Shown: positions 20,406 to 34,508 of the stretch, piece by piece
Position numbering within the stretch: position 1 is the first letter of the stretch
How the letters are laid out: each line of letters opens with the position of its first letter
Assembly (NCBI RefSeq): GCF_026686735.1
Contig: NZ_CP113432.1
Span: forward strand, 3,585,001-3,649,000
From: Pseudomonas triclosanedens
Lineage (GTDB): Bacteria; Pseudomonadota; Gammaproteobacteria; Pseudomonadales; Pseudomonadaceae
Length of the DNA stretch: 64,000 bases
Direction: 5' to 3'
The notes under the pieces: generated by a model
Databases searched by the model: none
What the model saw: the letters and a program-made list of their open reading frames with translations, nothing else
Told to the model about the DNA's origin: nothing
Position numbers and translations under genes: made by a program

Positions 20406-20503
20406 TGGAGATGGCATACCTCCACCCCAGAAGTAGAGCTGGGAAAACCGCACTTTCAAAGTGCTGATGATGCCTACAGGTCCTGATCGAGGACGCTGTG
20501 GGC
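20406..20503 (+). promoter_or_regulatory. Fluoride riboswitch 1 (crcB motif) with alternative hairpin
   Basis: The aptamer is 20406-20479. GGAG/CTCC closes the first stem around ATGGCATAC, the second stem is GCACTT/AAGTGC, and the conserved tail is TGATGATGCCTAC. The pseudoknot partner GGCAT pairs with ATGCC, whereas the copies at 25.8 and 31.7 kb use GGCGT and GGTGT with ACGCC. An extra hairpin (CCCAG/CTGGG, 20426-20443) is inserted between the stems. The alternative pairing GCCTACAG (20472-20479) with CTGTGGGC (20496-20503) would undo the aptamer. A TATACT -10 box lies just upstream. It precedes the MutS-like operon. Confidence 0.82.
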
Positions 20504-20781
20504 TGTCGTCCACCGCGCTCGCCGATCTGTTTGTACCCCACTCCCAGGTCGCGTAGATGCGTATAGAAGAATTTCTCTCCGCACATCGAACCGGAGCCCA
20601 ACCCTCCGGTGTTTGGCTTGTGCGCGCTGGTGCGAGGATGCACTCGGTCAGGCCAGCGTGGTCGCTATACGTGATCAAGTCTTGGTTTCGCGCCATGACC
20701 GGCTGGAGACAGAATAAATCCGACTCCCACCCCTGCAGCGCCATGCGGCGCGTCAACATGCCATGGGAATAGAAAGCAGCT
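20504..20781 (+). other. Long leader between riboswitch 1 and the MutS-like gene
   Basis: About 280 bases without a convincing gene. An open frame of 71 codons runs from ATG 20557 to 20772 and ends 9 bp before the MutS-like start. It lacks a clear ribosome site and any recognisable motif, so a small leader peptide is possible but unproven. No U-rich terminator is seen. Confidence 0.4.
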
Positions 20782-22374
20782 ATGGAAACTCCACTCGCTG
20801 ATACTCACCCCAAGAGCGTCCAGGCCAATCAGAGCCAAGCACGAGAGATTGCGTTCCAGAGCATCCTGGGCGAAGGCCCAAGCATCCACATTGCGCAGCA
20901 ACCCGAGTGTTTTCACGACCTCGGGCTGGATCAGGTGGTGCAAGCCGTCGTGGCGCCCTGGAAGGAGTATGACCTCGCAGGGTTCTTCCATGCCAATCTC
21001 ATGTCGGAGGATGCGATCGTCTTCCGGCAGGAAGTGATGCGCGACCTTGAACAACCGGACATCATGGCTGCCGTGCGCGGGTTCACCGAGCGGTTGCGCG
21101 TGATGCGCCAGCAATTGCCGCTGGCGACCAAGGCCTACGACCAGCACGAACGCAACCGCTGGCATCTGAATGCGGTGCAACGCTATGGAGAGGCCATCGT
21201 TGAACTCGATCGAGCACTGGCTCCGCTGGCACTCAATTCCCGAGGCTTGCAGCGCTGGCGCGAGTTCGTGCGGGCGTATGTCGAGTCCGCGCCCTTCAAG
21301 CGCCTCATGGAGCAGGCAGCGCAGTTGGTGCGGGACTTGGCGAGCATCACTTATGCGGTGACGATCTACGGCCCCAACGTCTCGGTTCGCAACTGTGCGG
21401 ATGAGCCGGACTACACCGTGGAGATCGAGCGCACCTTCGCCAAATTCCGCCGCGGCGCAGTGAAGGACTACCGTATCCAACTCCCGGTCAAGGAGGGCCT
21501 CAACCACATCGAGGCGCAGGTACTCGACTGCGTCGCGCAACTGAACCCGCAGGTGTTCGGCGCGCTATCGGCGTTCCGGGCCGAGCATGATGTATTCATG
21601 GAGCCCCTGGTCGAGCGCTTTGACCGCGAGATCCACTTCTACATCGGCTGGCTGGACTTCATCTCCCCGTTCCGCAAAGCAGGCATGGCGTTCTGCCATC
21701 CCTCCGTGTCGAATGCCACGAAGGACATCCAGGTCTATGGCGCATTCGACCTGGCGCTAGGGCTGCGCCTGTTGAACCAGGAAAAAGCGATCGTCTGCAA
21801 CGGCTTCGAGTTGCATGGCGCCGAGCGGATGATCGTCGTCACCGGCCCGAACCAGGGCGGCAAGACGACATTCGCGCGCATGTTCGGCCAGTTGCACTGG
21901 CTGGCAAGCCTCGGCTGCCCGGTGCCGGCCACCGGGCCGGCCCGGTTCTTCCTGTTCGATCGTCTGTTCTCGCACTTCGAGCGCGAAGAGGACATCCGTA
22001 ACCTGCGCGGCAAGCTGCACGACGACCTGGTGCGCATGCATCGCATTCTGGAGCAGGCAACACAGAACTCCGTCGTGGTGATCAACGAGATTTTCTCCTC
22101 CACGACCTTGCAAGACGCACTGTTCCTCGGCCGTGAAATGCTGGAACGCCTGTCCCGGCTCGACGCCATCGCCGTATGCGTCACGTTCCTGGATGAGCTG
22201 ACACGGTTTTCCCCCAAGGTGGTCAGCATGGTGGCGGCGCTCGATCCAACGGACCCGGCGGCGCGCAGCTTCAAGCTTGAGCGGCGGGCGGCCGATGGCC
22301 TGGCGCATGCGCTGGCGATTGCCGAGAAATACCACGTCACCGGCACCTGGTTGAAGGAGCGGATCGCGCCATGA
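20782..22374 (+). CDS. MutS-like ABC ATPase A, fluoride-riboswitch associated
   Basis: A protein of 530 residues with the C-terminal MutS-type ATPase. Walker A is GPNQGGKT (355-362), Walker B is in SVVVINEIF, and the following S-T-T-L-Q-D-A matches the MutS signature. The N-terminal part is helical, lever/clamp-like. The mismatch-recognition domain of true MutS (with its F-x-E) is absent and the length is about 60% of MutS. It lies downstream of riboswitch 1 and overlaps the second MutS-like gene by ATGA. MutS-like genes have been noted among genes under fluoride riboswitches; their role is not known. Confidence 0.8.
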   Translation: METPLADTHPKSVQANQSQAREIAFQSILGEGPSIHIAQQPECFHDLGLDQVVQAVVAPWKEYDLAGFFHANLMSEDAIVFRQEVMRDLEQPDIMAAVRGFTERLRVMRQQLPLATKAYDQHERNRWHLNAVQRYGEAIVELDRALAPLALNSRGLQRWREFVRAYVESAPFKRLMEQAAQLVRDLASITYAVTIYGPNVSVRNCADEPDYTVEIERTFAKFRRGAVKDYRIQLPVKEGLNHIEAQVLDCVAQLNPQVFGALSAFRAEHDVFMEPLVERFDREIHFYIGWLDFISPFRKAGMAFCHPSVSNATKDIQVYGAFDLALGLRLLNQEKAIVCNGFELHGAERMIVVTGPNQGGKTTFARMFGQLHWLASLGCPVPATGPARFFLFDRLFSHFEREEDIRNLRGKLHDDLVRMHRILEQATQNSVVVINEIFSSTTLQDALFLGREMLERLSRLDAIAVCVTFLDELTRFSPKVVSMVAALDPTDPAARSFKLERRAADGLAHALAIAEKYHVTGTWLKERIAP

Positions 22375-33219: not shown

Positions 33220-33221
33220 CC

Positions 33222-34508
33222 ATGTCGGCATCCAGCATCCAGACCATACATGCGCGAGAAATCCTGGACTCACGCGGCAACCCCACGATCGAAGTCGATG
33301 TAAGTCTGGCTGGTGGCGCCACGGGGCGCGCCGCCGTTCCATCCGGTGCGTCCACAGGTATTCACGAGGCCGTCGAAATCCGAGATGGCGATGTCCATCG
33401 CTTTAACGGTAAAGGTGTTCACACAGCAGTTTCCCATGTCAACAAAGCGATCTCTGCAGTGCTCCACAGCAGAGATGCCTGCGATCAGGCGGACATCGAC
33501 AAACTGCTGATCGAATTCGATGGCACTCCCAACAAGGAACGCCTCGGGGCCAACGCAATCGTCGGAGTGTCTTTGGCCGTGGCCCGTGCTGCCGCACAGG
33601 CCTGCGGTCAGCCGCTGTTTCGCTATCTGGCAGGCGATCGCGATATACGCATGCCCGTGCCGATGTTCAACATCCTCAACGGCGGCGTGCATGCGAACTG
33701 GCAGGGGCCGGATTTTCAGGAATTCATGATTGCGCCAGTGGGTGCTCCGAGCTTCTCTGAAGCATTCCGCTACGGCGCAGAGATCTACCACCGCCTGCGC
33801 TCAATCCTGAAAGAACGAGGCTACTCCACAGCAGTCGGTGACGAAGGCGGGTTTGCCCCTGCACTGCAACGCAACAGCGATGCGATCGAGCTGATACTGG
33901 CGGCGATCGAAGCGGCAGGCTATCGGCCTGGCATTGATGTAGTGCTCGCTCTCGACCCAGCCTCCAGTGGTTTCTTTGAAGACGGCCTCTACCACCTTCG
34001 TAGCGAAAGCCGCAAAGTCACGCCATCGGAGCTGATTGAGTTGTACGAAGACTGGATTGGTCGCTTCCCAATCGCGGTGCTGGAGGACGGACTGGCAGAG
34101 GACGACTGGACCGGCTGGCAACTACTGAATCAGCGACTGGGCGATCAGATCGAGCTGGTGGGGGATGACCTCTTCGTGACCAATGTCAAACGTATTGAGC
34201 GCGGCATCCGCGAGAAGGTCGCCAACGCCGTACTGATAAAGCCCAATCAGGTGGGCACGCTTACCGAAACATGCGCCGCCGTAGATATGGCTTACGCGGC
34301 TGGCTGGGGAGCGATGGTTTCGCATCGCAGCGGCGAAACAGTAGATAGTTTCATTGCAGACTTAACCGTCGCATTGAACACCGGACACCTCAAGACCGGT
34401 GCTCCCTGCCGCGGTGAGCGTGTCGAAAAGTATAACCAACTCATGCGTATTGAAGAGATATTAGGTGACCGTGCCCACTATGCCGGTCGGGCCGCATTTG
34501 TTCGCTAG
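33222..34508 (+). CDS. eno: Enolase (island copy)
   Basis: A protein of 428 residues converting 2-phosphoglycerate to phosphoenolpyruvate. The ATG at 33222 stands 7 bp after GGAG; the ATG at 33216 is too close. Catalytic and metal residues are in place: [28 protein letters not shown] (D), [12 protein letters not shown] (E), GDDLFVTN (D), VLIKPNQ (K) and SHRSGETVD. Enolase is the classical target of fluoride, which binds with phosphate at the Mg site. An extra copy under a fluoride riboswitch would either raise the enzyme level or supply a less sensitive enzyme. Confidence 0.95.

Follow-up and report, generated by a model that had tools for sequence, protein, structure and literature searches.

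A predicted fluoride-inducible tolerance module on an integrative and conjugative element of Pseudomonas triclosanedens

Fluoride tolerance is usually told as a matter of export. A stretch of the Pseudomonas triclosanedens genome (64,000 nucleotides, C1:3585001-3649000 of a one-contig genome of 6,245,384 bases; hereafter the window) raises the question why fluoride exporters should lie among fluoride riboswitches together with an enolase, a phosphoglycerate mutase, ion transporters and two MutS-like ATPases. This cargo is part of an element of about 82 kb, with 17-bp repeats at both ends and a tRNA-Gly site, which by its predicted genes and these repeats is classed as an integrative and conjugative element (ICE) of the PFGI-1 class. 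The element very probably carries a fluoride-inducible tolerance module, as predicted from its sequence. The gene set appears fluoride-linked because the same genes recur near fluoride riboswitches in a related ICE and on plasmids of other phyla, and the reading of these genes as one joint fluoride programme, first proposed in an initial annotation of this DNA, is well supported by comparison. The islands point to a second layer of tolerance, in which inhibited enzymes are replaced and a conserved pair of ATPases takes part, and what we describe resembles a kit for fluoride tolerance, passed from species to species, with at least one unexplained machine inside. Transferable fluoride islands are already in print (PMC5533749, PMC5971314); the findings on the MutS-like pair and on the loop of an enolase clade are new. 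A search of the open-licence literature found nothing on ICE-borne fluoride islands, on a MutS pair in the fluoride response or on a tie between fluoride and DUF190.

Fluoride riboswitches and the genes around them

The three fluoride riboswitches named in the initial annotation all exceed the gathering score of their family (RF01734, 34 bits), and no extra aptamer was detected in window positions 17000-39000 even at a lax threshold. The gene families named there were recovered as well: two MutS_V proteins, an Ion_trans channel, CrcB, DUF190, His_Phos_1, an E1-E2 ATPase, GpmA, Voltage_CLC and enolase. The features of the island are as follows.

20398..20483, plus strand: fluoride riboswitch aptamer 1 (RF01734, 43.3 bits), leader of the mutA-mutB-toroid-K channel run
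20782..22374, plus strand: MutA, MutS-like ATPase of 530 aa with domain V and core (PF00488, 62.1 bits, and structural alignment)
22371..23951, plus strand: MutB, second MutS-like ATPase, 526 aa, overlapping the mutA stop codon (PF00488, 54.1 bits)
23948..24874, plus strand: 308-aa prenyltransferase-type alpha-alpha toroid protein (own PF00432 score 17.3 bits)
24879..25757, plus strand: voltage-gated-type K+ channel with a TVGFGD filter and a C-terminal four-Cys tail (PF00520, 115.4 bits; PF07885)
25782..25852, plus strand: fluoride riboswitch aptamer 2 (RF01734, 56.5 bits), with an 11-bp hairpin competing for the 3' aptamer strand
26248..26652, plus strand: DUF190 protein a (PF02641, 20.4 bits, under the cut-off of 23.4)
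26649..27038, plus strand: CrcB/Fluc fluoride channel (NF010792, 154.3 bits; curated equivalog cut-off 125)
27051..27374, plus strand: DUF190 protein b (PF02641, 45.2 bits)
27399..28016, plus strand: histidine phosphatase, branch 1 (PF00300, 180.8 bits)
28043..30472, plus strand: P-type ATPase of the IIIA proton-pump type, with its true start probably more internal
30616..31338, minus strand: GpmA, cofactor-dependent phosphoglycerate mutase (TIGR01258, 236.7 bits; cut-off 81.7)
31666..31744, plus strand: fluoride riboswitch aptamer 3 (RF01734, 51.8 bits)
31804..33219, plus strand: CLC-type antiporter (PF00654, 247.4 bits), start probably further in
33216..34508, plus strand: second enolase with a lengthened loop 2, overlapping the CLC stop codon (TIGR01060, 616.4 bits)

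The riboswitches head three runs: mutA-mutB-(308-aa open reading frame)-K channel; DUF190a-crcB-DUF190b-histidine phosphatase-P-type ATPase; and CLC-enolase. Within each run most adjacent genes overlap or almost touch, as in an operon, the overlaps being those of mutA/mutB/308-aa frame, DUF190a/CrcB and CLC/eno. The three riboswitch-headed operons of the initial annotation thus stand as runs, with two corrections: gpmA falls outside them, on the opposite strand between the second and the third, and the element has four riboswitches. The fourth (55 bits, C1:3561729-3561800) is inside the element and outside the window; downstream of it are a 119-aa open reading frame and then a ChaA-like cation/proton antiporter (L022:2168-3703). 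A fifth, chromosomal riboswitch heads a crcB-DUF190 pair just downstream of groEL (L002:1501-2349, C1 about 1244434), so the riboswitch-led crcB-DUF190 arrangement is not confined to the element. These two riboswitches and the 308-aa toroid protein had been overlooked before. Four of the genome's five fluoride riboswitches lie in 82 kb of 6.25 Mb, a clustering beyond what chance would give.

Pairing of at least 8 bp between the 3' aptamer strand and the sequence directly downstream is possible in 45 of 55 leaders. These competing hairpins have a mean length of 9.5 bp, against 7.0 in shuffles (mononucleotide shuffles of the 60 nt downstream, 200 per leader), and a T-rich tail is present in 14 of those 45 leaders. 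Riboswitches 2 and 3 have 11-bp stems; that of riboswitch 4 does not stand out, 116 of its 200 shuffles being equally long. The leader parts downstream of riboswitches 2 and 3 (25868-25923 and 31760-31815) are 89% alike over 56 nt, and these two leaders match a leader in Dyella (L104) over 76 and 97 nt, about 90% alike. We infer a fluoride-on control through competition with the downstream hairpin, perhaps by way of Rho.

On this basis the module would work as follows. Fluoride entering the cell would act on the riboswitches and raise expression of the genes downstream, and CrcB and the CLC protein would export the ion. The P-type pump, the K+ channel and the ChaA-like antiporter could repair ion balance and pH, preserving the driving force for export. 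Poisoned enzymes of lower glycolysis would be replaced, by an enolase variant whose active-site loop is altered and, with no riboswitch involved, by the metal-free GpmA beside the host's metal-dependent GpmI. The MutS-like ATPase, probably a heterodimer, may act on proteins or on another substrate that is not a mismatch.

With so many ion transporters, the island could also serve ion or pH stress in general and be read out through fluoride riboswitches by happenstance. Passages of a review on fluoride export, pH and enolase name Na+/H+ antiporters as common riboswitch genes (PMC11139923). Enolase, however, is a known fluoride target, both CrcB and CLC are known to export the ion, and as many as four distinct fluoride aptamers have been kept, which makes this alternative most improbable.

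The element and its relatives

The assignment of the island to a conjugative element held up, on the evidence of the integrase beside tRNA-Gly, the direct repeats and the transfer genes. The features at its right end are these.

34620..35510, plus strand: LysR regulator (PF03466, PF00126), 65% identical in Dyella, where it also adjoins the island
36625..38631, minus strand: tyrosine integrase of the element (PF00589, PF13356), 57% identical in Dyella
38794-38869: tRNA-Gly, beside the integrase
38795..38811, no strand assigned: right 17-bp repeat, in the tRNA-Gly 3' end

The 17-bp direct repeats are 82,156 bp apart, the left copy (C1:3541639-3541655) lying outside the window in the same direction; the remaining two copies in the genome are inside two further tRNA-Gly genes at 4.09 Mb. 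Transfer genes above curated cut-offs comprise a PFGI-1-class relaxase, a conjugative ATPase and three ICE proteins (models passed: TIGR03760, NF041494, TIGR03744, TIGR03752, TIGR03755, TIGR03756), and from these genes the element is predicted to excise and transfer. The element is presumably also ICEclc-like. Pyrophosphatase, UspA, KefB-like and PAP2 genes were not found in the element (tblastn with plasmid queries, 1e-3). A radC RNA motif (131 bits, window 6004-6152) precedes the radC gene of the element. To the left of the island, window 15602-20124 holds an alkaline phosphatase, UppP, an RpiR-type regulator and an OFeT-like permease, and OFeT is also among the cargo of the Dyella ICE.

This ICE, in Dyella sp. 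AtDHG13 (G751:C3, about 231.2-310.0 kb), has most of the fluoride set. Its order is tRNA-Gly, integrase, LysR, histidine phosphatase, enolase (85% identical), two DUF190 genes, CLC (90%) and a riboswitch; further in follow the OFeT-like gene, GpmA (68%), a P-type ATPase (65%), the relaxase (66%), crcB (45%), a second enolase (53%), MutA (74%) and MutB (78%), along with genes for transfer and accessory functions (59-80%). The tRNA end recurs as a 15-bp copy 78.8 kb away, outside any tRNA. Thus the tRNA-Gly site, integrase, transfer genes and fluoride cargo are homologous to those of the window element, whereas the cargo is in two blocks, an additional divergent enolase is present, CrcB is only 45% identical and the tRNA-Gly anticodon differs. 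Because backbone and cargo are about equally diverged between the two elements, the ICE lineage carrying fluoride genes may be long-lived.

Searches with MutA gave a wider view. Relatives were found in eight genome contigs (protein search), with MutB directly after each, and at E 1e-40 or better in 45 of 72,556 plasmid records, mostly of Enterobacteriaceae; 21 of these are conjugative and 14 mobilizable. MutA is rare in the genomes drawn (one of 390 in the order, two of 398 in the phylum, own genome counted in both), and none was confirmed in viral contigs. Of 23 MutA loci, 20 contain one or more fluoride riboswitches that reach the gathering score, with 53 riboswitches in 540,257 bases (Rfam), or 19 of 22 and 50 riboswitches when the window is left out; these loci are not independent, L025, L032, L034, L036, L037 and L039 being near kin and L016 and L017 close kin. 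A riboswitch lies at most 400 nt upstream of MutA on the same strand in seven of the 23 (the window, L018, L026, L028, L030, L031 and L035). The plasmid loci of Burkholderia multivorans and Alicyclobacillus have six riboswitches each and that of B. cenocepacia has five. NuoB/C/H-like or hydrogenase-4-like genes stand close to fluoride riboswitches in L026, L030, L031 and L035; they may be the 'formate hydrogen lyase' genes of a 2010 account.

Islands on Klebsiella, Enterobacter and Salmonella plasmids (L025, L036, L037, L039) share MutA-MutB, the P-type ATPase, CrcB, GpmA, enolase, CLC and DUF190 with the window, and have three riboswitches each, as it does. They differ in lying on conjugative or mobilizable plasmids, in sequence (MutA about 41% and enolase about 60% identical) and in having in addition an antiporter, uspA, a pyrophosphatase and PAP2 or an undecaprenyl-diphosphatase. 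When the DNA of the whole island was matched against plasmids, only pieces of CLC were found, in four records. Comparable islands are on plasmids of several phyla, including those of clinical and food isolates, and the 'strong fluoride exposure' that the initial annotation had read from the set is therefore an unsupported guess.

The nearest published parallel concerns Enterobacter cloacae FRM. As described in parts of the report (PMC5533749), this strain grows at 4,000 mg/L fluoride and has a riboswitch operon, ppaC-uspA-eno-gpmA-crcB-orf5249, on the predicted genomic island GI3; without a 4,489-bp fragment the minimal inhibitory concentration is 1,500 mg/L. GI3 thus resembles our island in its fluoride riboswitch, crcB, eno and gpmA. 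It differs in the single riboswitch reported in those parts and in ppaC and uspA, neither of which tblastn found in the window element, and its six regulated genes as given there include no MutS pair, CLC, K channel or DUF190. A Pantoea plasmid fragment carries crcB, gpmA, eno, uspA and ppaC, according to parts of its description (PMC5971314).

Several observations weigh against a single fluoride programme under riboswitch control. gpmA has no riboswitch of its own. Riboswitches 1 to 3 have no clear U-run after the competing hairpin, and the hairpin of riboswitch 1, with a stem of only 8 bp, is at chance level (44 of 200 shuffles equally long); the mechanism of the switch is therefore unproven. 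Three of the 23 MutA loci have no riboswitch at gathering score: L014 is a 12.4-kb contig; L020 has three sub-threshold matches, the best of 32.6 bits and one of them directly before MutA; and L038, a Tsukamurella plasmid with MutA-MutB in an aro/dnaE neighbourhood, has none and is the one clear exception. The idea that all island enolases form one clade was rejected, as this label needed three changes on a tree with more controls (see below). To judge from the six GI3 genes named in the FRM report, where it is absent, the MutS pair is not needed for high tolerance in that strain. Finally, among the MutA loci the K channel occurs in one of 23, the window itself, and the toroid protein in two, the window and one other.

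The last two counts favour the view that efflux and enolase alone matter and that the K channel, toroid protein, DUF190 proteins, phosphatase and MutS pair are hitch-hikers of the cargo region. Against this view, MutA-MutB, DUF190, the histidine phosphatase and the P-type ATPase recur in other islands, and DUF190 follows crcB behind the chromosomal riboswitch too. We regard it as unlikely, and keep to a joint programme.

Enzymes of lower glycolysis

The island enolase is 56% identical to the other enolase of the host, presumably the housekeeping one. It keeps the catalytic Lys and Glu and the metal-ligand motifs. In a tree of 62 enolases made by a quick method, it falls in a clade of 12 members (SH-aLRT, the Shimodaira-Hasegawa-like approximate likelihood-ratio test, 99). 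All 12 have a loop 2 that is one residue longer (NGGVHA[NR][WG]Q..D[FI]QE), as do none of the 50 others, and the Trp is present in 11 of the 12. In known enolases, loop 2 closes over the substrate.

All 12 members are in loci with a fluoride riboswitch. Nine had been reached through islands, and only the other three, taken by sequence rank from a search of 299 phylum genomes, serve as a test; on later examination all three proved to be in riboswitch loci, one of them (G659) being on a Massilia plasmid already met by name, without its context. A fourth stretch, a 6.75-kb contig (G414) whose enolase does not belong to the clade, lacks a riboswitch. The Massilia plasmid shows that an enolase in a riboswitch locus is not always part of a riboswitch operon, since the riboswitch there precedes CLC and lies downstream of the enolase.

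Beyond this clade, islands L013, L019, L020, L027 and L035 use other enolases, for which a shared origin finds no support. With 11 controls, ten from the host's order and one from G538, island and control enolases separated cleanly; the separation was lost after eight from island hosts and one island row were added. One row labelled housekeeping by elimination (L064, Dyella C10) has three fluoride riboswitches in its locus (L105), and for L062 the housekeeping label is assumed. The longer-loop clade of 12 rows appears to be the sole enolase grouping that stands. Should the altered loop prove to confer fluoride tolerance, organofluorine biotechnology would gain a useful part.

The divergent second enolase of the Dyella ICE (L013:8722-9987) has Arg at the position of the catalytic Lys (LIRLNQIG) and an altered SGASTG loop, and is possibly inactive or a decoy. 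Among the 60 listed of 1290 plasmid records matching the enolase, 44, with E. coli and related plasmids among them, match no more than a C-terminal part of the query; in the one examined (L117:5001-5408) this part adjoins crcB between sit and iuc genes and resembles the remnant of a fluoride island.

GpmA is the sole cofactor-dependent mutase found in a search of its own genome, where the next matches score 27 and 20 bits, and the host has GpmI (786.9 bits). GpmA is metal-free and GpmI metal-dependent, so the element should add a route that metal-fluoride would not block. At 1e-20, GpmA had no match in one genome of the same genus (G094) and two of the same family (G061, G211), while each of five other island hosts (G538, G659, G751, G755, G756) has at least one; a PDB search with GpmA at E 1e-60 gave none.

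The MutS-like pair and other cargo

MutA-MutB, a conserved ATPase pair, has carried the label DNA repair from 2010 at the latest. The initial annotation had two MutS-like ATPases, and both are there, as a tandem pair homologous to each other across 433 alignment columns; the correction is that neither is a mismatch-repair MutS. In all 23 MutA loci, window included, a MutB match begins at most 15 nt after the MutA match, and the two are probably heterodimeric. The pairing may not be absolute, since at E 1e-40 MutB occurs in 48 plasmid records, the 45 with MutA and three without. A second MutB-like gene on the B. cenocepacia plasmid NZ_CP073671.1 (111994-113539) lies away from the pair there.

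Could the pair be a mismatch-repair or DNA-damage response induced by fluoride? Domain V is present, such is the usual annotation, parts of the 2010 paper on the crcB motif list mutS under 'DNA repair' (PMC2864571), and parts of a plasmid paper count such genes as mismatch repair (PMC6317114). However, domain V is the sole MutS domain that Pfam finds in MutA and MutB, whereas the host's 867-aa MutS shows domains I to V in the same scan. The mismatch-binding domain MutS_I is absent from both at E up to 1 (host MutS, 145.9 bits), and the domain I motif GxF(Y/F)E, present in host MutS, occurs in none of 29 rows. Walker B has Asn in place of the Asp of host MutS, invariantly in the alignment (N435-E436 in 15 MutA rows, N409-E410 in 14 MutB rows), and the NCBIfam cut-offs for MutS are missed by far (MutA 72.5 against 480 and 65.7 against 641.7 bits; MutB 50.1 and 41.1). 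The picture for connector domain II is mixed: Pfam gives no match, and in the structural alignment most rows of E. coli MutS start only at residue 260-273, but some MutS and MSH2 rows at 172-193. We have rejected mismatch repair as the function of the pair; the DNA repair label is probably wrong, and a fluoride-induced DNA-damage response is very unlikely.

A role like that of the MutS2 core, on ribosomes or nucleic acid structures to sustain translation under fluoride, has more in its favour. A structural search with MutA gave, among the 50 entries listed, only MutS and MutS2 relatives; among the closest solved relatives are core regions of MutS2 with a similar set of domains, and MutS2 is known on collided ribosomes, to judge from the title of structure 7qv3. 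On the other hand, Pfam scans found no Smr domain in either protein, the pair looks heteromeric, and the riboswitch-bearing islands whose annotation was inspected hold no translation genes, so that such a role is doubtful.

Our own suggestion is a tentative one. MutA-MutB share domain V and core of the MutS/MutS2 fold, and differ from these proteins in lacking the mismatch-binding domain, in the Walker B Asn and in forming a tandem pair. They might be an ATP-driven clamp, induced by fluoride, that releases or rebuilds metalloenzymes trapped in metal-fluoride-phosphate complexes, enolase first; with the loop-altered enolase and metal-free GpmA added, the island could then be a kit that keeps lower glycolysis running under fluoride, not a mere set of exporters. 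On the clamp reading, which we hold only as a possibility, the pair would be a repair machine for poisoned enzymes that evolved from a mismatch-repair ATPase. KamC, the reactivase ATPase of lysine 5,6-aminomutase (NF052383), would be a distant parallel, being likewise a MutS-like ATPase of about 500 aa. It is the best of the four NCBIfam models listed for MutB (57 bits), MutA (41.4 bits) scoring higher on the MutS models; both are far under its cut-off of 300, and the open-licence literature held nothing on point for such a reactivase. If MutA-MutB does revive poisoned enzymes, the MutS fold would thereby gain a new use.

Of the remaining cargo, the two DUF190 proteins had been named before; b passes the family threshold, and a, which does not, is 60-63% identical to plasmid proteins annotated as DUF190. 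The P-type ATPase had been called a proton pump. TIGR01647 is indeed its best-scoring listed family, with 571.2 bits over the full model, and the cut-off of 615.5 is missed. By score the histidine phosphatase is no true phosphoglycerate mutase, all 18 listed NCBIfam matches being below cut-off. The CLC translation contains a GNNLI stretch, which may mark it as the CLC-F type. The 308-aa protein matches no family at usual cut-offs on its own; a relative in L019 scores 35.7 bits with PF00432 (cut-off 26.5), and a profile of the two rows matches geranylgeranyltransferase-II beta chains at 7.8e-9.

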